The notes beneath the pieces were generated by a model. The model did not search any database. It was not told the DNA's origin and saw nothing but the letters and a program-made list of their open reading frames with translations. A stretch of 41,544 nt of DNA from Bacteroidales bacterium (GTDB lineage Bacteria; Bacteroidota; Bacteroidia; Bacteroidales; VadinHA17), in contig JAGGWN010000051.1 of the NCBI GenBank assembly GCA_021157415.1, forward strand, positions 1 to 41,544, written 5' to 3'. Positions 14,342 through 26,531 of this stretch are shown here, piece after piece. The position numbers and the translations under genes were made by a program. Every line of letters begins with the position of its first letter. Within the stretch, counting starts at the first letter, position 1.

Positions 14342-16273
14342 CTATTTAAATTCAAAGATACTGGGTTTGTGTGGGATAAAGTTATAGGGGGAGAACTGTC
14401 TTTCCCCTGATAAAACAATGGTTTGGTAAGTTACCGCTTCGGGTAAAACCGGGTAATACGCAAAACGGATCTGGAGCGTGCTGAAGACAAGATTTTCATT
14501 TCTTATTCTGATTCCCAGGCCCAGCCCGGAATAAAGATGATTGTCGGTGAACTGAATGTTTCCGAAATCAATGACTCCCAGGTCGGCAAAAGCAAAGAAT
14601 ACAAAACGAAATCCATAAAGGTAGTATGGACTGAATGCAACCGTCTCGGTTTTAATGGCCAGTCTGCGTATGCCGGTGAGGCTGTCACTCCTCAATCCTC
14701 TGATGCCATATCTGTCGTTGATAGTCAGCCGTTCTTCGCTATACCTGTTTATACCGGCAGTGAAATTGACATCCACAAATTGCCGGTAGTAATATTTGCC
14801 GATAGAGACCAACCGGCTGAAATAGTTGGTACGGATATTGATAATCCCGGCGTTGACAACATCCTTTGGCATAAAACCGCCTATTTTTATGCCGCTGTTC
14901 AGGTATCCGAAGCGGTTAAAATATTTACCGGCTGAACATTCCAAACCCGCATAATACCGGTTTCCAAACTCGTTGATTTCATAGCCTCCCGTTGCTGAAA
15001 CCAACATTCCTTCAGGAATATCTTCCGTGGTTCCGTAATTGTAAATCAACCCTGTTTTGAAATACTGGTCTTTTGAGTAGGTAAGCCCTGCCAGAATCAA
15101 CTGGTGCCGCTGGTATTGGTAGTATTCCTGTTCTCCCAACAGCGGACGTTGCATGACATTGTTCTGAATGTACCTGCCTGAAAGTACTAAACGTTCACGC
15201 CGGGAGCTGCTCAGTAAAAACGAATGAGCATACCACAGGTCGTTGTATAAATATTTTAGGGGGACTTCCATGGTGTCGTGGCTAAGCACTTCATGCGTAT
15301 ATGCAATGCTTGTAGTGAGTCCCCCGGCATTTTTTGTAAAAAAATTAATGAAATGCCGCTGAAAGGAAAGAGCGGCTGACTGCACCTTGAAGGTATGGTA
15401 AATACTTGCCTTGCCATGGATGAAACTTTTTCCGATATTATTGATTTCATATCCGGCACCGTTTCCGACGGGATGATCCTCGTTAAAATTATAGGGAATA
15501 GCTACGCTGAGTTTATGTCCCAGGCCCATGAGATTGTTATCGAATACGGAAATGTTTCCTTTTTTAATGTTGTAATATTGGTATTCAGCACCGATGGAAA
15601 AGACATCCCGTGTGATTACCACGACATCAACCTGATTGTTTCCCGCAGGTAAGAGCACAAAATGGGCATCCCGTATAAACGGTAACTGCCTGATATATCG
15701 TTCATTGTCAGCCATAATGTCCGGATTGACAGCATCTCCCTCTTTGAAAAAAAGGTTGTGGCTGATCGTTTTTGTGCGGGTGATTTTGTGTAATTTGTTC
15801 AGAAAACGTGCAGACCCGGTTTCTCTGATCAGGAGCGTATCTTTGACAATCGGACTAAAAGGATCAATCTCAAAAAATTTTATGGAACGGATAACTTTTC
15901 CTGTATATTTCAAATATTCATGGATGCTGTTTTTTTCTTTCTGCGGGTTTCGTGCAATGCCCCGGTTGGGAATAAAGAACAATTGATATAGTTTATATTT
16001 CCACTTGTTGTTTTTTGCCTTGGTGAGAAGCGTATCATAGAATTTTTTGGATTTAAGATATTTCTCGCCGGGCCGGATCACAGCCACGTCTTCCGGAAGG
16101 ATCAGTACTGTATCGCTGTCGAAAAAGATAATGGAATCGTTGAATATCAGCGACTCACCTTTTTTTATATGTAAGGTGTCCGGCGAGCCGGTGGACGACA
16201 GAACAACTCCGGCATTGCCAAGGAGCAGGGAAAGAAGAAGCAGATACTTAAAAGAATATTTTTTAACATCCAT
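14342..16273 (-). CDS. Omp85-like outer membrane protein (BamA/TamA-type barrel with POTRA-like part)
   Basis: 643 residues with signal peptide ending near GVVLSSTG. Residues about 110-230 contain a POTRA-like segment: KYTGKVIRSIKFFEIDPFSP, a middle with NLFFKEGDAVNPDIMADNER, and YIRQLPFIRDAHFVLLPAGN ending in VDVVVITRD. This is followed by about 400 residues of alternating beta strands with frequent aromatic positions, consistent with a 16-strand barrel. The C-terminus is FEFK, ending in the barrel region. This layout resembles BamA/TamA-type surface antigens with a reduced periplasmic arm. It could help assemble or export surface proteins or lipids, but the partner is unknown. The next gene upstream (16297-17058) ends 23 nt before it, so the two may be co-transcribed. 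Confidence 0.7.
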   Translation of the reverse strand: MDVKKYSFKYLLLLSLLLGNAGVVLSSTGSPDTLHIKKGESLIFNDSIIFFDSDTVLILPEDVAVIRPGEKYLKSKKFYDTLLTKAKNNKWKYKLYQLFFIPNRGIARNPQKEKNSIHEYLKYTGKVIRSIKFFEIDPFSPIVKDTLLIRETGSARFLNKLHKITRTKTISHNLFFKEGDAVNPDIMADNERYIRQLPFIRDAHFVLLPAGNNQVDVVVITRDVFSIGAEYQYYNIKKGNISVFDNNLMGLGHKLSVAIPYNFNEDHPVGNGAGYEINNIGKSFIHGKASIYHTFKVQSAALSFQRHFINFFTKNAGGLTTSIAYTHEVLSHDTMEVPLKYLYNDLWYAHSFLLSSSRRERLVLSGRYIQNNVMQRPLLGEQEYYQYQRHQLILAGLTYSKDQYFKTGLIYNYGTTEDIPEGMLVSATGGYEINEFGNRYYAGLECSAGKYFNRFGYLNSGIKIGGFMPKDVVNAGIINIRTNYFSRLVSIGKYYYRQFVDVNFTAGINRYSEERLTINDRYGIRGLRSDSLTGIRRLAIKTETVAFSPYYLYGFRFVFFAFADLGVIDFGNIQFTDNHLYSGLGLGIRIRNENLVFSTLQIRFAYYPVLPEAVTYQTIVLSGERQFSPYNFIPHKPSIFEFK

Positions 16274-16296
16274 TATTCAATGTTTCCTATGAGCAT

Positions 16297-17058
16297 TCAT
16301 TCTTCCAGCACATCGTCGGCATTGAACTGGAAACCGAGGCGTTTACCCGTTTGTTGGAGCGAACGCATGATCTTTGCCGACATTTGTTCGACACTTGTGA
16401 TCTTGACATTATCATATGGAGGGACCAGCAGGTCAAACTGCATGGCATAAAGGATTGATTTCTCAATGATCTTTTTCATGGTTTCTTTGCTTACCAGCAG
16501 ACTGCCGAACTTTTTATAATGAAACCCCATCTGTCTTTTCCCTTCCACGAAAAAGTGATTGTTCCGGTTGATGAAAATCCTGGCTATCAGGTAACCCAGG
16601 TCATTTACGCGGTTATATTTGAATGAATCGGACAGGAAATTGTAAATGTTGATAATCCCGCAATAGGAATTCAGGGGTTCATCTTTTACATAAGGTATTT
16701 CCCATATCTTATGCTCCCGGTTGAATTCAAAAATGTTGGTATGCATACTGCATATCAGGATGTCTCCGGAGATTTTGATTTGTGAGGCAAACTTTCCAAA
16801 ATCTTTAAACTCGGTCAACAGGCGTGGATCTTTTTGAGGGATGCCGGCATTCAATTCGGAAGATAATTCTTTTACGGCATCTTTAAGCAGGCTGAATCCT
16901 GCTACGGTCTGGTCATAGATATGTTGCTTGAGGGCCGCTTTGGTAGTCAGGTATTCGACGATTTGTTTCTGGCTGTTACTGTTTCCCACGTTCGTATCAT
17001 TTAAAGGGTCATAACCACAAAAAAGAAACCTAAAAATAATTTCTTTTTTCACATTCAC
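16297..17058 (-). CDS. Unrecognised conserved-looking protein
   Basis: 253 residues as drawn. I do not recognise a family. The sequence has normal coding composition, no signal peptide or clear membrane helix, and a mix of charged and aromatic residues (for example KKFGSLLVSKETMKKIIEKS, then MQFDLLVPPYDNVKITSVEQ). The C-terminus is acidic (ADDVLEE). The first 25 residues look atypical, with a hydrophobic segment FRFLFCGYD, and the real start may be further in, near NSNSQKQIVEYL, perhaps at a GTG. It lies between proS and the Omp85-like gene on the same strand. A cytoplasmic protein is most likely; nothing in the context fixes a role. Confidence 0.6.
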   Translation of the reverse strand: MNVKKEIIFRFLFCGYDPLNDTNVGNSNSQKQIVEYLTTKAALKQHIYDQTVAGFSLLKDAVKELSSELNAGIPQKDPRLLTEFKDFGKFASQIKISGDILICSMHTNIFEFNREHKIWEIPYVKDEPLNSYCGIINIYNFLSDSFKYNRVNDLGYLIARIFINRNNHFFVEGKRQMGFHYKKFGSLLVSKETMKKIIEKSILYAMQFDLLVPPYDNVKITSVEQMSAKIMRSLQQTGKRLGFQFNADDVLEE

Positions 17059-17156: not shown

Positions 17157-18632
17157 TCAATATGCTTTGGCAAAGAGCACTCTTCTTTGGGAAGGTTTCC
17201 CTGTCACGATACATTTTCCTTCTTCTCGGGGGATATCTACCGGAATGATACGCAGGGTGGCTTTGGTTTCTTCTTTGATCTTCAGTTCTGTTTCCGTAGT
17301 ACCGTCCCAGTGTGCCAGTACAAAACCTCCTTCTTTCTCAAGAACTTCCCGGAACTCTTCGTAAGTATCTACCGTATGAATATGACTGTTTCTGTATTTC
17401 AGGGCTTTATCATAGATGTGCTGTTGTATATCGTTCAGCAGGGTTGGGATTTTTGATGCCAATCCCTCCATTGAATACGTGTTTTTTTCCAGTGTGTCCC
17501 GGCGGGCCACTTCAACAGTGCCGTTGGCCAGGTCTCTGGGTCCTATGGCGATGCGTACGGGAACTCCTTTTACTTCATACTCAGCAAATTTCCAGCCTGG
17601 TTTGTGGGTATCCCGGTCATCGTATTTGGCAGATAGACCAAGATTTTTCAGCTCTTCGAGCAATTTTTCAGCTACCACGGTAATTTGATCCAGCTCTTCT
17701 TTCTTTTTATAAATAGGGACGATGATAACCTGTAAAGGAGCCAGTCTGGGGGGCAATACCAGTCCGTTGTCATCCGAATGGGCCATGATCAGGGCTCCTA
17801 TAAGGCGAGTGGATACGCCCCAGGAAGTGGCCCAGACATATTCAAGTTTTCCGGATTTATCCAGAAATTTCACATCGAACGCTTTGGCAAAATTTTGTCC
17901 CAGAAAATGGGACGTTCCTGCCTGCAGGGCTTTGCCGTCCTGCATCAAGGCTTCAATGGTATAGGTCTCCAGGGCACCGGCAAAGCGTTCATTTTCCGAC
18001 TTCACACCTTTCAGTACCGGTATGGCCATGTATTTCTCAGCGAACTCTGCATAAAGGTTGATGATCTTCAGCGTTTCCTCAACCGCTTCTTCCCTGGTAG
18101 CATGAGCGGTATGCCCTTCCTGCCAGAGGAATTCGGCCGTGCGGAGGAACAAACGGGTACGCATCTCCCATCTCACTACATTGGCCCATTGATTGATCAG
18201 CAGGGGCAGATCACGGTATGACTGGATCCATCCTTTGTATGTGTTCCAGATGATCGTCTCGGAAGTGGGACGTACGATCAGCTCTTCTTCCAGTTTGGCA
18301 TCTTCATCTACGACCACACCCTTGCCATTCGGGTCGTTTTTTAACCGGTAGTGGGTGACTACAGCACATTCTTTGGCGAAACCTTCCACATGGGAAGCTT
18401 CTTTGCTAAAAAAAGATTTGGGAATAAACAAGGGGAAATATGCATTTTCGTGCCCCGTTTCCTTGAACATCTTATCCAGTTGGGCCTGGATTTTTTCCCA
18501 GATTGCATACCCATGCGGTTTTATAACCATACAACCCCTGACGACAGAATTTTCTGCCAGATCAGCCTTGGTTACCAGGTTATTATACCATTGTGAGTAG
18601 TCTTCCGAACGGGGGGTGATTTCCTTTGCCAT
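17157..18632 (-). CDS. proS: Prolyl-tRNA synthetase (archaeal/eukaryotic-like type)
   Basis: 491 residues from the ATG at 18632 ([16 protein letters not shown]). An in-frame upstream ATG would add a hydrophobic stretch absent from the family, so I rejected it. Class II synthetase landmarks are visible: [20 protein letters not shown], motif 2 [20 protein letters not shown] with HTAHA, and motif 3 in [20 protein letters not shown]. The anticodon-binding domain follows ([12 protein letters not shown]...). The protein ends in a Tyr (LFAKAY), as short ProRS of this type usually do. It charges tRNA-Pro in the cytoplasm. The short length and lack of the bacterial editing insertion place it in the ProS type 3 group common in Bacteroidota. 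It diverges from the Tyr-rich gene across 88 nt. Confidence 0.96.
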
Positions 18633-18709
18633 AATTTTTGGTATGGTATTTGATTTATTTTGGTTGAGAACTGCAAAGAAAAAAATTATCAACGACAAAT
18701 AAAAACAAT

Positions 18710-18720: not shown

Positions 18721-19884
18721 ATGAAAACAAATCTTACATATAAAACACTGATGATTCTGATATCATTACTTTTGTTACCCTCCGCTTACTCATCTGCTGC
18801 CGGATATGAAGATGGTTATGTTCATGTTGGGGCCACGGTTACCTTTCATGTTCCGGTTGTATCCTATGCATACAGGATCCGACACTTTTATCATCCTACG
18901 ACCGTCATAAATTATTTTTATGATCCGGTGTTTACCGATTCATACTGGTATCCTTACGATGCTTACTACTGGGATGATCCTTTTTATATGGGAAGCAGTT
19001 TTTATGTTGGATATACGGGATATGTCGGTTTTTCCTTTGGCATTTCCTGGAATTATCCGATGTATTTCAGGAGCAGGTATGCGTGGAGACCTCCTGTTTA
19101 CCATTCCTGGCGTTACAGGCCGATGGTCTATAATTACAGAGTTCCTTACTACTATTCTTCCTCCCATTTTTCAAACCGATACTATTATGGGAACTATTAC
19201 ACCCGCAATACCTATTACAACAATTATTACTACCAGAATGGTTACCGTTCCAACACACACATCAACAATCATGTGAATAACCATGTAACCAACCACATCA
19301 ACAATCACATGAATCCTCGTACCAACCATTCCCGGGGCAATACTCACACCCGGGTGGAAGTCAGGGGACATTCGCAGGTACAGGGACAGGCATCCCGGAG
19401 GAGCTACGGAGTTCGCAACAGCGGAAACAGTAGAAGAGTGGCGAGCGGTAATGCCCTCCAAGGAACTGTTCCCAGGCATTCTTCCTCTGCAGTCGTGCGT
19501 ACCGGGAGTGCCCGTCAGGGCAGAACCGTCCAGACCAATACGAGAAGTTACGGCAGAACAGTTACTGTGGATGCACACAGGAGAAATACGGGACAACGTT
19601 CCTCCGGTATCGCAAACAGGACCACAACAAGAAGTAATTACCATGCAACCGGTCGTAGCAGAACCCAGGCTGTGCATGCCCCTGCCGTGAGATCAAGGGC
19701 TAACAAAGGTTCACATTCTACGGGATACAGGAGTTCCCGGACCACTGTCAAACGGGTGAATGTTACCAAACCGGCCGTCAGACGGTCCTCGGGCCATGCT
19801 GTAACAAAAGCTCATGCACCCCGTTCTGCAGGAAACACCAGCCGGTCTGCTAAAAAAAACACTTCCCGGGGACATCGCAGATAA
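18721..19884 (+). CDS. Secreted Tyr-rich, low-complexity protein with basic tail
   Basis: 387 residues with a signal peptide (hydrophobic [19 protein letters not shown]). Residues about 28-180 are extremely aromatic: one stretch of about 36 residues (starting near VPYYYSSS) holds 14 tyrosines. Then comes a His/Asn repeat ([18 protein letters not shown]) and a long Arg/Ser/Thr/Gly tail of about 190 residues with almost no acidic residues, ending [11 protein letters not shown] do not recognise a named family. It shares the segment R-I-x-H-F-Y-x-P followed by INYFYDP with the lipoprotein at 20108-21400, so the two are probably paralogues. A surface or matrix role is plausible from the signal peptide and composition, but is inference. 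A perfect hairpin at 19893-19930 follows the stop. Confidence 0.75.
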
Positions 19885-19892
19885 GATTGATT

Positions 19893-19930
19893 GTCATAAA
19901 AAAAGAGCCATCCGGCTCTTTTTTTATGAC
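19893..19930 (+). terminator. Perfect 17-bp hairpin terminator
   Basis: GTCATAAAAAAAGAGCC (19893-19909), loop ATCC, then the exact reverse complement GGCTCTTTTTTTATGAC. The A-run/T-run pair makes it a likely bidirectional intrinsic terminator. It begins 8 nt after the stop of the first Tyr-rich gene and separates it from the second. Confidence 0.85.
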
Positions 19931-20092
19931 AATCCGTTTACATCTGTTTGTTTCTATGTTCTTTGCTGTTTTTTTGTTATTTTCAGGAAAGTTTTTATAC
20001 ATTTGTTCAGATAATGAAATAATATAGATGCTTGAAAAAAAAACAGTTTTTGGTATGATATTTGTTTCTTATTCAATGAGAAAAAATTTATG

Positions 20093-20100
20093 AAGGAGGG
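20093..20100 (+). promoter_or_regulatory. Shine-Dalgarno sequence that fixes the lipoprotein start
   Basis: AAGGAGGG lies 7 nt before the ATG at 20108. Because it sits inside the longer frame that opens at 20090, the start at 20108 is the real one. Confidence 0.75.
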
Positions 20101-20107
20101 ACCAGAA

Positions 20108-21400
20108 ATGAAAACCAGATTTTTAATAATACCAGCTTTTATAGTAGCTTTGATCCTGGGGGGATGTGCATCAAGTGGATATATCACGGATGATGTTTAT
20201 TATATCCCGCAGGGTCAATCTTCCGTTCAGGCAGGTACAACTGTGCAAACAAATACAGAAACGACCGCCCAACAGCCGGCAGAAGCTTCGGGAGATGAGG
20301 TTTTTTCTGCTATTGATGATTATTACAGGGATAAAACTTATAATGAGGATACTTTGCAACTGACCCAGCAGGAAGCTGCTGCCAACCAGGGAGGAAACGT
20401 TATAATCAATAATTATGATGGTTCCTATGCTGCACGGATCAATCATTTCTTTTATCCCTCTCTCGGATTAAATTATTATGATCCTTTTTATTACGGTGCA
20501 GACCTTTATGATCCGTTTTATAGCCCCGGCCTGAGTTTTTCCATGGGATACGGTTTCGGTTATGGTTACGGCCTTGGCCTGGGATATGGTTATCCTTTTT
20601 ACAATTCATGGTATAATCCCTTTTACCGATATTCTCCTTATTCTTACTATCCTTATTATGGAGGATACTATGGAGGATACTATGGAGGATACTACGGATA
20701 TACGGGCGTCTATCCTATGCCGTATAAGGATTACGAAAATTACAACCCGAAATACGGACACCGGAATACGGTTGCCTCCAATCGTCTTTACAGCCCGAGG
20801 AGCAGTTCATCTGTATCACCGGCCAAAAGCAGTTTTATTCCTACCGATTCTAGAAGGGTGAGCGGAACCCGGAGGGCTGCAGGCACCTCTGCTACGGCCA
20901 CACAGTCCAGGAATGCATCAGGGTTGACTACTACGAGAACGAAAGGTACCGGTACAACCGTCACTACGGAAAAAAAGACTACGACCCGCACCACATATCA
21001 GCCCAGACGCACCTCTCAGGGGACGACTCATGTAAGGACTACCCGGCTGCCGCAGAGTGCAACATCCCGGACCACCACGACGACCAGAAGTACGGGAAGA
21101 ACATACGTGCCGAGATATACCAATACCAGAGCTGCCAGAACCACTGCCCGTCCCTCCTATAACCCTTCGCATAGCATTGGCACATCACGGTCGAGATCGG
21201 TTACCTCTTCTCCCGTGAGAAAGAATTACTCTCCGCCCGTAAAACGAAGCAGTTCAACCTATACACCGCGACGTAGCTATACCCCTACTCACTCGTCCTT
21301 TAACCGTTCATCGTCTTCCTCATCTACTATTTCCGCACCGCGGCGCAGCTCTTCCAGCAGTTCGCGTTCCTCGGGAAGCGGCGGTGGAAGAAGACGCTGA
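20108..21400 (+). CDS. Tyr/Gly-rich lipoprotein with Arg/Ser/Thr-rich tail
   Basis: 430 residues. Lipobox LGGC puts the lipidated Cys at 20. The next ~90 residues are polar and Gln/Thr-rich. RINHFFYPSLGLNYYDPFYY opens a Tyr/Gly-rich block (about 115-215) with FGYGYGLGLGYGYPF and three YYGG units. The second half is a Ser/Thr/Arg tail ending in SSSSSSRSSGSGGGRRR. The aromatic block aligns by eye with that of the neighbour at 18721-19884, so they look like diverged paralogues, one soluble or released and one lipid-anchored. No enzymatic motif is visible. The composition (Y/G/S then R/S/T) is the kind that forms condensates, fibres or cross-linked coats. That is inference only. Confidence 0.8.
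   Translation: MKTRFLIIPAFIVALILGGCASSGYITDDVYYIPQGQSSVQAGTTVQTNTETTAQQPAEASGDEVFSAIDDYYRDKTYNEDTLQLTQQEAAANQGGNVIINNYDGSYAARINHFFYPSLGLNYYDPFYYGADLYDPFYSPGLSFSMGYGFGYGYGLGLGYGYPFYNSWYNPFYRYSPYSYYPYYGGYYGGYYGGYYGYTGVYPMPYKDYENYNPKYGHRNTVASNRLYSPRSSSSVSPAKSSFIPTDSRRVSGTRRAAGTSATATQSRNASGLTTTRTKGTGTTVTTEKKTTTRTTYQPRRTSQGTTHVRTTRLPQSATSRTTTTTRSTGRTYVPRYTNTRAARTTARPSYNPSHSIGTSRSRSVTSSPVRKNYSPPVKRSSSTYTPRRSYTPTHSSFNRSSSSSSTISAPRRSSSSSSRSSGSGGGRRR
20657..20692 (+). repeat. Three exact tandem 12-bp repeats (TATGGAGGATAC)
   Basis: Three identical 12-bp copies encode Tyr-Gly-Gly-Tyr units; a fourth, degenerate copy follows. The repeat keeps frame, so copy-number change would lengthen or shorten the Tyr/Gly block of the lipoprotein without breaking it. 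Confidence 0.9.
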
Positions 21401-21513: not shown

Positions 21514-23031
21514 ATGATTCTGAAGGACATGCATAAAAAAAATATAATCCTGCTCCTCACCCTTGTATTTGCTATTTTCTTTGCTGCCGGCACACAGGCA
21601 CAAAATGAGGAAGATGCACTTCGTTATTCACAACTTTTCGATGCCGGACTCACTGCCAGATCTTTAAGTATGGGAGGAGCCTTTGGCGCTCTCGGAGCCG
21701 ATATGTCGGAGATGTCTATCAACCCTGCGGGGATTGCTGTGTATCGGAGAAGCGTTTTTTCCATTACCCCGACATATATGTATGACAATACCCATGCTAC
21801 TTATCTTGGGAAAAGAATGTATGATTCGGATTCTCATTTTTCATTGGGAAACATTGGAATGGTTTATACTTATAATACCGGTCAGGACAACGGATGGGTG
21901 AACTTTAATTTCGGATTCTCCTCCCAGAAACGCACCGATTTCTTTAAAAATATGACTGTTTCAGCGGTCAATGATCATAGTTCTATGCTGGATTATTTTG
22001 CTGATAATGCAGATGGGAAAACCCTCGATATGCTGGACGACTATGAAGAAGGTCTTGCTTTTGATACCTGGCTGATCGATACGGTGGCGGGGAATCCTAC
22101 CCAATATGAAACCGTATTATCCCAATATGGTGATTTTGCAAATTCCACGTATGGCGAAGTACAACGAAGACAGGTTGCTGAATATGGGAATAATGCTGAA
22201 ACAAACTTTAACTTTTCTGCCAATTACGGATACAAATTATATGTGGGGGGAACCTTTACCATTCGTTCACTCAGCTATCATCGCACCATGAAGCATTCTG
22301 AGGATGATGTAAATGATGAGATATTCGATTTTAATTATTTTGATTATATTTATTATCTGAACACCCAGGGTACGGCCTATGCTTTCAGTATGGGCGCCAT
22401 TTTCAGGCCTGTTCCAATGCTCAGACTGGGGACTGCCTTTCATTTTCCTACCGTTTATAAATTACATGACAGCTACTCTTCCACTGTAGAATCGGGTTTT
22501 GATACGCCGGATGATCAAGGTTATACCACTTATTCCTCAGACTCTCCTGACGGATATTATGATTATAAATTAAACACTCCTTTCCGGTTTATCGGAAGCG
22601 TGGGCCTTCAGATCAAAAAGTTGGGTGTTATCAGTCTGGATTATGAGTATATCGATTATCCCGGAATGAAATTCAAAAACTGGGGAGATACCTATGATTT
22701 TTCCCCTACGAATGAAATGATCCGCAATGCTTATAAAGGAACCAGCAATATCAAAGGAGGGGCTGAAGTGCATTTCGGTTCTGTTTTCCTGCGTGGTGGG
22801 GTTGCTTATTACGGGAGCCCTTACAGAACTACCGAACTGAATAAAAATGCTTCTTCCGTATCCTATAGTACCGGGATTGGTTTTAAAACCAGAATGTTTT
22901 CTGTTGATTTTGGCTATGCTTATCTTACCCACACGGAGAATTATGTATTGTATCCCAATAATGAGGGGGATTATGCCTCTACATGGTCAGGAAGACACCG
23001 GGTATCTGGTACGATAAGTTTCACCTTTTAA
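21514..23031 (+). CDS. OmpP1/FadL-like outer membrane transport protein
   Basis: 505 residues from 21514, or 500 from the in-frame ATG at 21529, which gives a cleaner signal peptide (MHKKNIILLLTLVFAIFFAA then GTQAQ). The mature N-terminus has ARSLSMGGAFGALGADMSEM and INPAGIAVYRRS, the conserved 'NPAG' plug region of the OmpP1/FadL family. Beta strands with many aromatic residues continue to the end, where VSGTISFTF is a typical barrel C-terminus ending in Phe. FadL-type proteins pass hydrophobic molecules across the outer membrane. It follows the Tyr-rich lipoprotein on the same strand after 113 nt. A hairpin at 23032-23047 abuts its stop. Confidence 0.85.
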   Translation: MILKDMHKKNIILLLTLVFAIFFAAGTQAQNEEDALRYSQLFDAGLTARSLSMGGAFGALGADMSEMSINPAGIAVYRRSVFSITPTYMYDNTHATYLGKRMYDSDSHFSLGNIGMVYTYNTGQDNGWVNFNFGFSSQKRTDFFKNMTVSAVNDHSSMLDYFADNADGKTLDMLDDYEEGLAFDTWLIDTVAGNPTQYETVLSQYGDFANSTYGEVQRRQVAEYGNNAETNFNFSANYGYKLYVGGTFTIRSLSYHRTMKHSEDDVNDEIFDFNYFDYIYYLNTQGTAYAFSMGAIFRPVPMLRLGTAFHFPTVYKLHDSYSSTVESGFDTPDDQGYTTYSSDSPDGYYDYKLNTPFRFIGSVGLQIKKLGVISLDYEYIDYPGMKFKNWGDTYDFSPTNEMIRNAYKGTSNIKGGAEVHFGSVFLRGGVAYYGSPYRTTELNKNASSVSYSTGIGFKTRMFSVDFGYAYLTHTENYVLYPNNEGDYASTWSGRHRVSGTISFTF

Positions 23032-23774: not shown

Positions 23775-24521
23775 TCATAACCGGTTGATCATACTGGCAT
23801 AGTATCCTGCACCAAATCCGTTGTCAATATTTACCACAGCCACCCCGCCGCTACAACTGGTGAGCATGGCCAGCAGGGCTGATATGCCCTGCAGGTTAGC
23901 ACCATAGCCTACGCTGGTAGGTACAGCTATCACCGGGATGTTTACCAGGCCTGCCACAATACTGGCCAGGGCCCCTTCCATTCCGGCAATGACAATGACA
24001 ATCCGGGATTTACGGATCTCGTCAAGATGGGCGGTGAGCCGGTGAATGCCTGCCACACCGACATCAAAGATGCGACGGACGGTATTCCCCAGTAATTCTG
24101 CCGTGACTGCTGCTTCTTCTGCCACAGGTATGTCGGAAGTCCCGGCGGTGATGACGGAAATATAAGTTTCAGGTAACACCGGTTCTTTTTTCCTGATGCT
24201 TATGATCCTGGCTTCTTTGTAATACGCTGCTTCCTGTGCCAGCTTTTTCACCGCATCGTATTTTTTCTTGGAAGCTTTCGTGATAATGATATTACTGTCA
24301 TGTTCAAGCATGGCTCTTACGATGCCTTCAAGCTGCACAACGGATTTCCCTGCGGCATAAATGATTTCAGGATATCCGCGTCTTAACTCCCGGTGATAAT
24401 CCAGTTTGGCAAACCCCAGGTCTTTTATGGAAAAAGACTGTAGTTCATGCAAGACCTCTTCTACACTACGGGTCCCGTTTTTTACGTCTTTCAGTAATTT
24501 TTCAAGATATTCTTTGTCCAT
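23775..24521 (-). CDS. larB: Nickel-pincer cofactor biosynthesis protein LarB
   Basis: 248 residues from the ATG at 24521 (MDKEYLEKLLKDVKNG); an upstream in-frame TTG at 24536 is less likely. LarB carboxylates and hydrolyses nicotinic acid adenine dinucleotide to pyridinium-3,5-biscarboxylic acid mononucleotide. The C-terminal half is the AIR-carboxylase (PurE-like) domain: ITAGTSDIPVAEEAAVTAEL, DVGVAGIHRL, VIAGMEGALASIVAGLV, VPTSVGYG and a C-terminal NIDNGFGAGYYASMI. The length is normal. It follows larE after 11 nt and precedes wbqC. Cytoplasmic. Confidence 0.95.
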   Translation of the reverse strand: MDKEYLEKLLKDVKNGTRSVEEVLHELQSFSIKDLGFAKLDYHRELRRGYPEIIYAAGKSVVQLEGIVRAMLEHDSNIIITKASKKKYDAVKKLAQEAAYYKEARIISIRKKEPVLPETYISVITAGTSDIPVAEEAAVTAELLGNTVRRIFDVGVAGIHRLTAHLDEIRKSRIVIVIAGMEGALASIVAGLVNIPVIAVPTSVGYGANLQGISALLAMLTSCSGGVAVVNIDNGFGAGYYASMINRL

Positions 24522-24532
24522 AGATAATTTTA

Positions 24533-25339
24533 TCAAAGGTTATCATAACTACCGCTCCTGAATCCCTGAAGATCGAACGTGATAAAATCATAACCAAGCT
24601 TTCTGAATTCCTGAAGGATCTTGTCTTTTATCTCCTTCCTGATAATTACCGGGAAATCTTTTTCAGGAATTTCAATGCGTGCCAGATTATGGTGAGTCCT
24701 GACCCGCAGGTTTCCGAACCCCAGCTTGTGAAGATAAGATTCGGCCTTTTCAATACGCTCCAGTATCTCTTTGGTGATGGTGTGACGGTATGGCAAACGG
24801 GTCAGCAGGCAGGCATTGGAAGGTTTATTCCAGGTCGGAAGGCCAAGCTCTTTTGAAAGGTTGCGGATATCTTCCTTTGTCAGTCCGCTCTCCAACAAAG
24901 GGCTGATAATCCCGAGTTCTTTCAAAGCCTTTCTTCCCGGGCGGTATCCCTGTGTATCATCCGTGTTGGTACCGTCAAAGAAATATTGCTTCCTGTCATG
25001 TGTTGCGGTTTTTTTAAAAGTTGTGAAAAGTGTAAGTTTGCAGAGATAACAACGGTTCCGGGGATTGTTCAGGATCCCTGCCGGTATAGGCAGAGGAATC
25101 ACAGTGTGGGGGATTTTATATTTTTTACAGAATTCCCTGGCCTCCCTGATTTCTGTCCGGTTCATATAAGGCGTGTCAAAGGTATAGGCTGAAAAATGCG
25201 GGGTCACCCTGGATGCTACAAAAGCCAGAAAAGCACTGTCTGTACCTCCTGAAAAGGCCAGTGCGGCAGGTGCATGATCCGGCAAAAATGCTACCAGCTT
25301 TTGAAAACCTTTATGTTTTATTTTTTCTATCTGCGTCAT
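24533..25339 (-). CDS. larE: Pyridinium-3,5-biscarboxylic acid mononucleotide sulfurtransferase LarE
   Basis: 268 residues. PP-loop motif SGGTDS at 30-35. LarE adenylates the LarB product and inserts sulfur, in the classical enzyme by sacrificing its own cysteine. Here Cys177 in WNKPSNACLLTRLPY sits at about the position of the sacrificial Cys176 of the Lactiplantibacillus plantarum enzyme. A CYLC pair (Cys97, Cys100) lies in the conserved NRCYLCK segment. No extra C-terminal cysteines are visible, so the iron-sulfur-dependent variant seems less likely, though this cannot be settled by eye. The start overlaps the end of larC by 29 nt, which suggests translational coupling. Confidence 0.95.
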   Translation of the reverse strand: MTQIEKIKHKGFQKLVAFLPDHAPAALAFSGGTDSAFLAFVASRVTPHFSAYTFDTPYMNRTEIREAREFCKKYKIPHTVIPLPIPAGILNNPRNRCYLCKLTLFTTFKKTATHDRKQYFFDGTNTDDTQGYRPGRKALKELGIISPLLESGLTKEDIRNLSKELGLPTWNKPSNACLLTRLPYRHTITKEILERIEKAESYLHKLGFGNLRVRTHHNLARIEIPEKDFPVIIRKEIKDKILQEFRKLGYDFITFDLQGFRSGSYDNL

Positions 25340-26531
25340 TCAATAAGATATTGATTTCCTCGTAGAGTTGTTTTAGCGGAATGTTCTGATCCATGGCGAT
25401 TTTTCTGCAGTCGTCATATTCGGGTTTCCGGTTGATCAGGGCGTTTCCCAGGTAAGCTTCCTTAATTCTGACCTTTCCATACCGGGTATCCAGGTAGGAA
25501 ATCTTCCTGACCAGGAAATTTTTCCGGACCCGGCGACGCCGAAAACCTATGGTCGTTGTTTCTTTCAGCAGGATCAGGCCGATTCCGTTACTTTTTTCAA
25601 CAGGAGCAAGCACGCATATTTTCATTCCGGGCCGGTTTTTTTTCATAAATACCGGAGTCAACGTAACATCCAAGGCCCCGGCTTCGAAAAGCCTGGTTAT
25701 GATCCAGTCGTACCATTCCGGGTTCATATCGTCTATCGTACATTCGATTTCTTCGGCCACATCTTCACTCAGATCGGTATTTTCTATGCTTTCAGCCAGA
25801 AAAGTACGCAGGAGGTTGGGACGTGAGGTTCCCTTGTGATTTCCAATGCCATATCCCGTCTGCAGGATAGCCAGCCCGGGGTCATCGGTAAACCGCGTCA
25901 CCAGGGTTGACAGGATGGCTGCCCCCGTCGGGGTGGTGGTCTCAAAATCAGTGCCCCCGAAATGTAAAGGTTTGTTTTTCAGGATCTCAACGGTTGCCGG
26001 GGCGGGCACAGGAATGATGCCATGGGCGCTTTTGACAAATCCCTGTCCCATCTCTATGGTAGAGGCCCAGACTTCATCCACCTGAAGATAATGAAAAGCA
26101 ATGGCAGCACCGACAATATCAATGATCGCGTCTTCACCTCCCACTTCGTGAAAATGGATCTTCTCAGGGGAAGAACGGTGTACTTTTGCCTCTGCTTCGG
26201 CAAGCACCTGAAAAATAGCTTTGGCCGTTTCCTTGACAGCCTGATCCAGGGGAGTGTCATCGATGATCTCCCGGATATCTCTCAGATTCCGGGATACCAG
26301 CGTGGGGTGCATTACGGAAACCGTGGCATGGGTGCCGTAAATGGCATTGCGGGAATCTTTTTTGAAAGATACCTTAACGTTGGATAGTTCGATTTTTTCC
26401 AGTTCCCCGACAAGATAATCTTCCGGAACCCCCAGATCTACCATGGCTCCCATATTCATATCCCCGCTGATCCCGGAAAAGCATTGATAGTATAATATTT
26501 TTTTTTTGTGCGCTCGCATGGTTGTATCCAT
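25311..26531 (-). CDS. larC: Nickel insertion protein LarC (single uninterrupted frame)
   Basis: 406 residues; a second in-frame ATG four codons in (MRAHKKKILYYQ) is an alternative start. Motifs are YYQCFSGISGDMNMGAMVDL near the start, IHFHEVGGEDAIIDIVGAAI, GIIPVPAPATVEIL and TTTPTGAAILSTLV. LarC uses CTP to insert nickel into the pincer nucleotide. In L. plantarum larC is made by a programmed frameshift of two frames. Here both halves are one continuous frame, as in many other species. It heads the larC-larE-larB operon and diverges from the DUF362 gene across 95 nt. The client enzyme LarA is not in the window. Confidence 0.96.
   Translation of the reverse strand: MDTTMRAHKKKILYYQCFSGISGDMNMGAMVDLGVPEDYLVGELEKIELSNVKVSFKKDSRNAIYGTHATVSVMHPTLVSRNLRDIREIIDDTPLDQAVKETAKAIFQVLAEAEAKVHRSSPEKIHFHEVGGEDAIIDIVGAAIAFHYLQVDEVWASTIEMGQGFVKSAHGIIPVPAPATVEILKNKPLHFGGTDFETTTPTGAAILSTLVTRFTDDPGLAILQTGYGIGNHKGTSRPNLLRTFLAESIENTDLSEDVAEEIECTIDDMNPEWYDWIITRLFEAGALDVTLTPVFMKKNRPGMKICVLAPVEKSNGIGLILLKETTTIGFRRRRVRKNFLVRKISYLDTRYGKVRIKEAYLGNALINRKPEYDDCRKIAMDQNIPLKQLYEEINILLNDADRKNKT

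Follow-up and report, generated by a model that had tools for sequence, protein, structure and literature searches.

Background

The closest described counterparts of the locus reported here pair an outer-membrane barrel of the FadL type with a lipoprotein. In the available text of two reports, a groove of the FadL-like barrel BamG accommodates the N-terminal tail of its lipoprotein partner BamH (PMC12578637, PMC12611786), and the genes for BamG2 and BamH2 form a putative operon (PMC12578637). In Flavobacterium johnsoniae, the lipoprotein Fjoh_4940 and the adjacent FadL homolog Fjoh_4941, which have consecutive locus tags, both responded to depletion of TamL – in the membrane the former rose 2.6-fold and the latter 5.6-fold, and in vesicles Fjoh_4941 fell to 0.4 – and the authors, in the available part of the report, suggest a functional link between the two (PMC12045153). 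This analysis concerns a locus in a Bacteroidales bacterium of the VadinHA17 lineage (assembly GCA_021157415.1), in which a gene for a tyrosine-rich lipoprotein, here named TyrB, is followed by a gene for a barrel (OMP) and preceded by a second tyrosine-rich gene, TyrA. The window, meaning the whole stretch of 41,544 nucleotides that was analyzed, is contig JAGGWN010000051.1 (C53) of a 3.3-Mb assembly. An original prediction, made from the letters of the window, had described TyrA and TyrB as a pair of secreted proteins with a composition like that of condensate-forming proteins and of the tyrosine-rich adhesives or coats of other organisms. The feature it saw is real, and the evidence suggests that it belongs to a core two-gene outer-membrane module, TyrB and the barrel, rather than to a local adhesive pair.

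Linkage and distribution of TyrB and the barrel

The barrel gene directly follows TyrB, on the same strand, in all 58 loci that were found through TyrB or TyrA matches and that reach past TyrB (18 near relatives and 40 loci of the order; L033, among the 58, lacks its 5' end). Loci collected in this way test only whether a barrel follows. The near relatives numbered 20, two of which (L032 and L048) break off where the contig ends, without reaching the barrel, and the 40 order loci were chosen from 161 genomes with matches for contig room and for a spread of E-values. Each of the 40 has one open reading frame (ORF) matching the TyrB profile, directly before the barrel. The gap between the two genes is 128 bases in the window and 3–152 bp in all loci but a few.

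The linkage also holds when loci are collected through the barrel. By a rule of our own, an ORF was called TyrB-like if it had at least 180 aa, at least 20 residues of YWFGN in some stretch of 60, more than 60% STRGNKPQ in its last 100 residues, and a gap of −250 to 700 bases to the following gene. Such an ORF precedes the barrel in 41 of 42 barrel-first loci – 13 of 13 from the order that had no TyrB-profile match, and 28 of 29 from the phylum. The 13 were picked, with room upstream, from the listed barrel matches without a TyrB match; the 29 are the best matches among 74 genomes, and poorer matches are not represented. Under the same rule, no TyrB-like ORF was found before any of 329 other genes of these loci (TyrB, the barrels and genes with more than 8.5% Tyr having been removed) or in any of 9 BamG loci. 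Of the 41 positives, L187 is atypical in having a CGSCH motif; in L190 one gene separates the TyrB-like ORF from the barrel, and L207 is cut at a contig end. Locus L180 first appeared negative, and a TyrB-like ORF was then seen in another frame.

Two side observations concern the genes next to the barrel. Lipoprotein-like genes beside the barrel in two distant genomes (L187:739-1419, CGSCH; L190:864-1490, CAQCH) have a CxxCH motif resembling a c-type haem site; that of L190 is the extra gene between TyrB and the barrel. In the single barrel-first locus that has no TyrB (L164 / L204), a small Lys/Asp-rich protein is encoded upstream of the barrel in its place.

A profile of the barrel (A3, built without L040, whose start is unsure) matched 239 of the 247 genomes of the order, including 204 of the 207 good ones, and 74 of 118 genomes of the phylum at E 1e-20. 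The TyrB profile matched 161 of the 247 genomes and 17 of 296 from the phylum, and genomes that had a match nearly always carried a single copy. Because all 13 of the profile-negative order loci hold a TyrB-like ORF before the barrel, many of these misses are due to rapid divergence of the sequence and to contig ends rather than to a missing gene. The divergent gene proS is in the fetched stretch in 35 of the 40 order loci and adjoins TyrB in 34 of these. Among 15 further phylum loci found with the TyrB profile, proS is present in 14 and the barrel was recognized by the window barrel in 14; a Sphingobacteriales bin has TyrB, then the barrel, plus proS.

TyrA has a much narrower distribution. 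A search with TyrA matched none of 16 genomes from other families, and the TyrA profile gave E-values below 1e-40 in only three of the 247 genomes, all of the window's family. The weaker matches that were compared, set against the places of TyrB by eye and not one by one, fall on TyrB. The original prediction had proposed a search for homologs, and for the pairing, in other Bacteroidota. Homologs of TyrB are widespread there; the pairing with TyrA did not hold up, and TyrA/TyrB as a conserved pair is ruled out, TyrA having been seen only in the window's own family. Judged from sequence, TyrA and TyrB are not the conserved unit, and it is TyrB with a FadL-type barrel that is widespread in Bacteroidota. 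From the linkage, the spacing and the confinement of TyrA to one family, TyrB and the barrel are likely the ancestral unit and TyrA a late copy.

Conserved ends and a variable middle in TyrB

Members of the TyrB family range from about 200 to 640 residues. Across families they align little beyond short motifs and the two ends, and the core and tail drift. At the N-terminus, 79 of 89 members have the motif [DEN][DEN]x(0,1)[ILVMAGF][YF] somewhere in mature residues 1–26; in 500 shuffles the mean was 5.7 and the highest count 14. In the 8 members judged by eye to have a plain signal peptide, the motif lies no more than about 10 residues after the presumed mature glutamine in every case. At the C-terminus, Arg or Lys occupies the last position in 85% of 96 members, the second-last in 77%, the third-last in 43% and the fourth-last in 28%, with 5–20% at the further positions sampled. 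At least one Arg or Lys is found in the last three residues of 97 of 99 TyrB proteins, vs 50% of the 329 background genes. A tail motif, Y-x-P-x-Y ... [RK]-P-x-Y, is present in 17 of 96, comprising the window's family and some other members. TyrB looks like an unusual, probably disordered lipoprotein with fixed ends and a free middle.

A lipobox pattern at the end of a signal peptide was found in 89 of 99 members and was missed in L186. On inspection, 3 of the 89 placements proved wrong – the signal peptide is a plain one in both L102 and L169, and in L108 the Cys used lies further on. The original prediction gave one of the two proteins of the window a plain signal peptide and the other a lipobox, and both assignments stood on inspection by eye: TyrA has the former, and TyrB has LGG|C, with predicted processing as an outer-membrane lipoprotein.

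The sequence behind the lipid cysteine bears on which side of the membrane TyrB faces. Surface lipoproteins of Capnocytophaga carry an export signal, K-(D/E)2 or Q-A-(D/E)2, close behind the cysteine (PMC5080379), and an acidic rule of the same kind is given in PMC12578637, as far as the available text of the two papers goes. None of the 89 TyrB members has such a signal, taken as at least two acidic residues at positions +2 to +6; 6 have one acidic residue there and 83 have none, and correcting L102, L108 and L169 adds no carrier. Because the signal is absent throughout, TyrB is predicted to face the periplasm.

This bears on the possibility that TyrB and TyrA form a surface coat or adhesive, with tyrosine-rich cores that crosslink or stack and basic tails that hold anionic polymers. 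The tyrosine-rich, basic composition would suit such a role, as would export of both proteins by signal sequences, repeats that vary in length, and the abundance of surface lipoproteins in Bacteroidota (PMC5080379, available text). Against it, the lack of the acidic signal leaves surface exposure of TyrB unsupported, the single copy in nearly every genome beside a fixed barrel suits a core envelope job, and no family match of any sort, adhesive or other, was obtained. A specialized adhesive or coat is also unlikely because the barrel of the module is present in nearly the whole order. We regard this explanation as quite unlikely.

Relationship of TyrA to TyrB

Both of the adjacent tyrosine-rich ORFs were confirmed. 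TyrA has 387 aa, 11.1% Tyr and an isoelectric point (pI) of 10.6, and TyrB (start taken at 20108) has 430 aa, 11.4% Tyr and a pI of 9.9. Their tails have almost no acidic residues, as had been claimed: the last 180 residues contain 2 acidic residues vs 38 Arg/Lys in TyrA, and 1 vs 34 in TyrB. Tyr peaks at 20 per 60 residues in TyrA and 23 in TyrB, and at no more than 10 in 23 other ORFs of the window that we chose as genes. The shared motif R-I-x-H-F-[FY]-x-P that had been noted beside this block reads RIRHFYHP in TyrA and RINHFFYP in TyrB. Core profiles of 19 TyrB and 15 TyrA sequences, the ends of which were trimmed by hand, align with a probability of 99.3% (E 3.5e-20, 80 columns, motif stretch included), so the two cores look like products of common descent.

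The in-frame 12-bp repeats, proposed as a route to length variation, form a real array of 3.5 copies that is shorter in two same-genus relatives. The ratio of non-synonymous to synonymous change (dN/dS), calculated by the Nei-Gojobori method with our own script for three same-genus genomes (one TyrB tail being cut at a contig end), was 0.13–0.14 in the TyrB core and 0.23–0.25 in its tail, 0.15–0.17 in the TyrA core and 0.33–0.49 in its tail, and 0.11 in the barrel. TyrA, the core and tail of TyrB, and the barrel are under purifying selection. Low-complexity filler under neutral drift would account for the poor alignment between families of the tail and of all but a few motifs of the core; a dN/dS far below 1 in both core and tail, the fixed ends and the barrel linkage all speak against it, and its probability is negligible. 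Chance composition or neutral filler is rejected by the core profile match and dN/dS.

No model in Pfam or NCBIfam matches TyrA, TyrB or 10 diverse TyrB relatives, and in a profile search of the PDB no chain matched TyrB below E 0.46 (one match at 0.46) or TyrA below 1. The original prediction had known of no described bacterial system of this kind; none of the sources searched (Pfam, NCBIfam, PDB and literature) yielded a family, and annotation as an ordinary structural family, which the prediction had allowed for, was not found in Pfam or NCBIfam.

The barrel and its relatives

The window barrel matches Pfam PF03349 (Toluene_X, the FadL/OMPP1/TodX family) at 32.6 bits, above the gathering threshold of 29.7; 28 of 53 barrel relatives match it at E 1e-3. 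The barrel profile matches the structures of TbuX, CymD, FadL and TodX, and also that of PorV (E 1.1e-9), for which the best stretch is profile positions 1–84, the N-terminal part. The family is marked by a 14-stranded barrel with an N-terminal hatch; for the window barrel AlphaFold2 gave a poor model with many strands, at a mean predicted local distance difference test score (pLDDT) of 42 with only 3 sequences, too low to be of use.

These matches raise the possibility of a FadL-like channel through which hydrophobic molecules pass, with TyrB as an accessory lipoprotein that gathers substrate or acts as a gate. The Toluene_X score and the matches to TbuX, CymD, FadL and TodX fit this, and the aromatic-rich core of TyrB could bind lipids. 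The confinement of the best PorV match to the N-terminal part of the profile counts against a channel, as do BamG and PorV themselves, examples from this phylum of FadL-like barrels that can act as holders for partners. We know of no transporter with such a lipoprotein partner. A channel is a possibility we take seriously, though a doubtful one.

The barrel is not BamG. The window barrel does not match the BamG model NF053685 (cut-off 250 bits) at E 0.01, and the single BamG match of the genome lies elsewhere, at G000:C84:33337-34554, with 329 bits, above the cut-off. In a tree, 25 barrels and 9 BamGs fall on the two sides of a branch with support of 100/100, the bootstrap not being settled; with no model match and the genome's BamG elsewhere, this rules the identity out. 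The BamG model does match 16 of the 53 barrel relatives, with a best E of 4.7e-24, below the cut-off or at scores not given, and a PorV/PorQ-family model matches 36 of the 53 (best E 7.8e-14). Because of these matches the barrels, BamG and the PorV/PorQ family are taken as kin, with no clean cut between them. The barrel thus belongs with the FadL-like barrels of Bacteroidota, some of which hold partner proteins.

The pair could be an outer-membrane assembly or quality-control station, either as a counterpart of BamG/BamH or by helping the beta-barrel assembly machinery (BAM) or the translocation and assembly module (TAM) with particular clients. It has the BamG/BamH plan of a FadL-like barrel with a lipoprotein, and there is kinship in the BamG-model matches just given; the changes in Fjoh_4940 and Fjoh_4941 on TamL depletion, if these are taken as a candidate TyrB/OMP pair, point the same way (PMC12045153, available part). 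The failure of the window barrel to match the BamG model, the separate BamG of the same genome, the separate clade and the lack of a PDB match to the TyrB profile below E 0.46 argue against it, and we consider a station of this type decidedly improbable.

A role in the type 9 secretion system (T9SS) or in gliding would draw on the PorV/PorQ-family matches and on PorV among the matched structures. The window barrel, however, scores 32.6 bits against the PorV2 model NF052325, for which 325 are required. Of the 247 genomes of the order, 14 have no match to SprA_N, a core marker of T9SS, and all but one of these (13) keep the barrel. Because of this retention, the module is disfavored as a strict part of T9SS, and a place for it in secretion or gliding machinery is very unlikely.

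Proposed function of the module

As a whole, we tentatively favor, with somewhat less than even confidence, the explanation that TyrB is a disordered leash at the outer membrane and docks on the FadL-type barrel of its own locus. TyrB and OMP would form one outer-membrane module in which the lipoprotein is disordered over most of its length. A short N-terminal segment of TyrB, DD-[ILV]-Y-[YF], would dock on the barrel, much as the BamH tail does on BamG, and the Tyr/Gly-rich and Ser/Arg-rich stretch would serve as the leash, free in sequence, variable in length and probably facing the periplasm. The basic C-terminal tip may bind an anionic or pocketed partner, for example peptidoglycan or another component of the envelope. 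TyrA would be an additional copy of the core, specific to one family, that lacks anchor and docking motif and probably forms a transcription unit of its own.

Several observations weigh against this explanation. Among the 42 barrel-first loci, L164 has no TyrB. In the most distant lineages (L183, L185, L186, L188, L189, L191; CYTKF in L184) the lipoprotein begins with CYTQ[LF] at the lipid cysteine and continues with an acidic stretch, not DDxYY, and for this reason docking by DDxY is not universal. Tail charge varies, with Asn-rich tails and few Arg in L047 and L206. The AlphaFold2 model of TyrB, with a mean pLDDT of 33 from 4 sequences, fits a thin alignment as well as it fits disorder. Finally, the analogy with BamH gives no support for the periplasmic side, because BamH, like its partners, is a surface lipoprotein.

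A barrel in nearly all Bacteroidales genomes, nearly always preceded by a TyrB-like gene for which neither Pfam nor NCBIfam has a model, marks a gap in knowledge of the envelope in a very common phylum. TyrB also offers a clear example of a protein that is free in sequence yet largely keeps both of its ends and its charge composition. How Bacteroidota tie or tend the outer membrane becomes open to direct laboratory test.

Gene layout and neighboring genes

The features of the module are listed in Table 1. In the window's family the order is proS (divergent), TyrA, TyrB and the barrel; most loci that extend far enough then have a WbqC-like gene in divergent orientation. A terminator-like inverted repeat parts TyrA from TyrB, which suggests that the two are separate transcription units. 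Beyond proS, two proteins of 642 and 253 aa without a Pfam match are encoded on the minus strand at 14342-17058, and they travel with proS in near relatives. On the other side of the module, at 23775-26531 on the minus strand, AIR-carboxylase-like, PP-loop/QueC-like and nickel-insertion proteins are encoded in a row, as judged from Pfam domains; we take this row to resemble the larB, larE and larC set for the nickel pincer cofactor.

Table 1. Positions of the genes and sequence features of the TyrB/barrel module in the window
Feature	Position	Strand	Basis
proS, divergent neighbor, conserved with the module	17157..18698	-	
TyrA, secreted Tyr-rich protein, plain signal peptide, basic tail; likely paralog of the TyrB core, window's family only	18721..19884	+	
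TyrA copy of the shared motif, RIRHFYHP	18874..18897	+	profile match
Inverted repeat, 20 pairs, between TyrA and TyrB; terminator-like on the - strand	19889..19934	.	consensus match only
TyrB, predicted lipoprotein with a core rich in Tyr and Gly and a Ser/Thr/Arg tail; conserved barrel partner	20108..21400	+	
TyrB lipobox cysteine (C20)	20165..20167	+	aligned among relatives
TyrB N-terminal DDVYY motif, proposed barrel docking site	20189..20203	+	motif in 79/89 members, shuffled mean 5.7
TyrB copy of the shared motif, RINHFFYP	20435..20458	+	profile match
Tandem array of 12-bp repeats that encode GGYY units; reduced in length in two same-genus relatives	20657..20698	+	
TyrB C-terminal Arg-Arg-Arg tip	21389..21397	+	
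OMP, FadL/Toluene_X-type outer-membrane barrel, conserved partner of TyrB	21529..23031	+	

Comparison with known systems

A barrel with a lipoprotein is a known kind of system; for the lipoprotein family itself, no description was found in the sources searched. The literature on tyrosine-rich, low-complexity, disordered or FadL-linked outer-membrane proteins of Bacteroidota, covered mostly as titles and the starts of abstracts, contained no description of a TyrB-like family. Fjoh_4940 and Fjoh_4941 may well be TyrB and its barrel, which their gene neighborhood would fit; the available part of the one account gives no family, motif or distribution for them (PMC12045153), and a search for Fjoh_4940, Fjoh_4941 and Fjoh_4939 found no other paper in the literature collection covered.

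TyrB/OMP is like BamG/BamH and BamG2/BamH2 in that a FadL-like barrel has a lipoprotein partner and the N-termini of both lipoprotein and barrel are conserved. It is unlike them in that the window barrel falls in a clade apart from BamG and does not match the BamG model. BamH, a surface lipoprotein, is folded and has acidic residues after its cysteine, whereas TyrB lacks these and looks disordered. PorV and the barrel are both Bacteroidota members of the FadL superfamily; unlike PorV, the window barrel scores far below the PorV2 cut-off and the barrel occurs in genomes without SprA_N.

A more distant comparison is with Braun's lipoprotein (Lpp), which has a lipid anchor in the outer membrane at its N-terminus and a basic C-terminal end, and which is a short coiled coil linked covalently through a C-terminal Lys. 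The likeness to TyrB is one of analogy only – both have an N-terminal anchor and a basic C-terminus, and TyrB is long and ends mostly in Arg. In its boldest form, which we consider unlikely though worth stating, Bacteroidota would carry a near-universal, undescribed module built on a fully disordered lipoprotein whose ends are fixed, by a docking motif at the N-terminus and a di-arginine tip at the other end, and whose spacer of Tyr/Gly and Ser/Arg is free. Held by the FadL-type barrel of the same module, the lipoprotein would be a leash, elastic and electrostatic, from the outer membrane to the layer below, a tethering job done elsewhere by proteins of the Lpp type.

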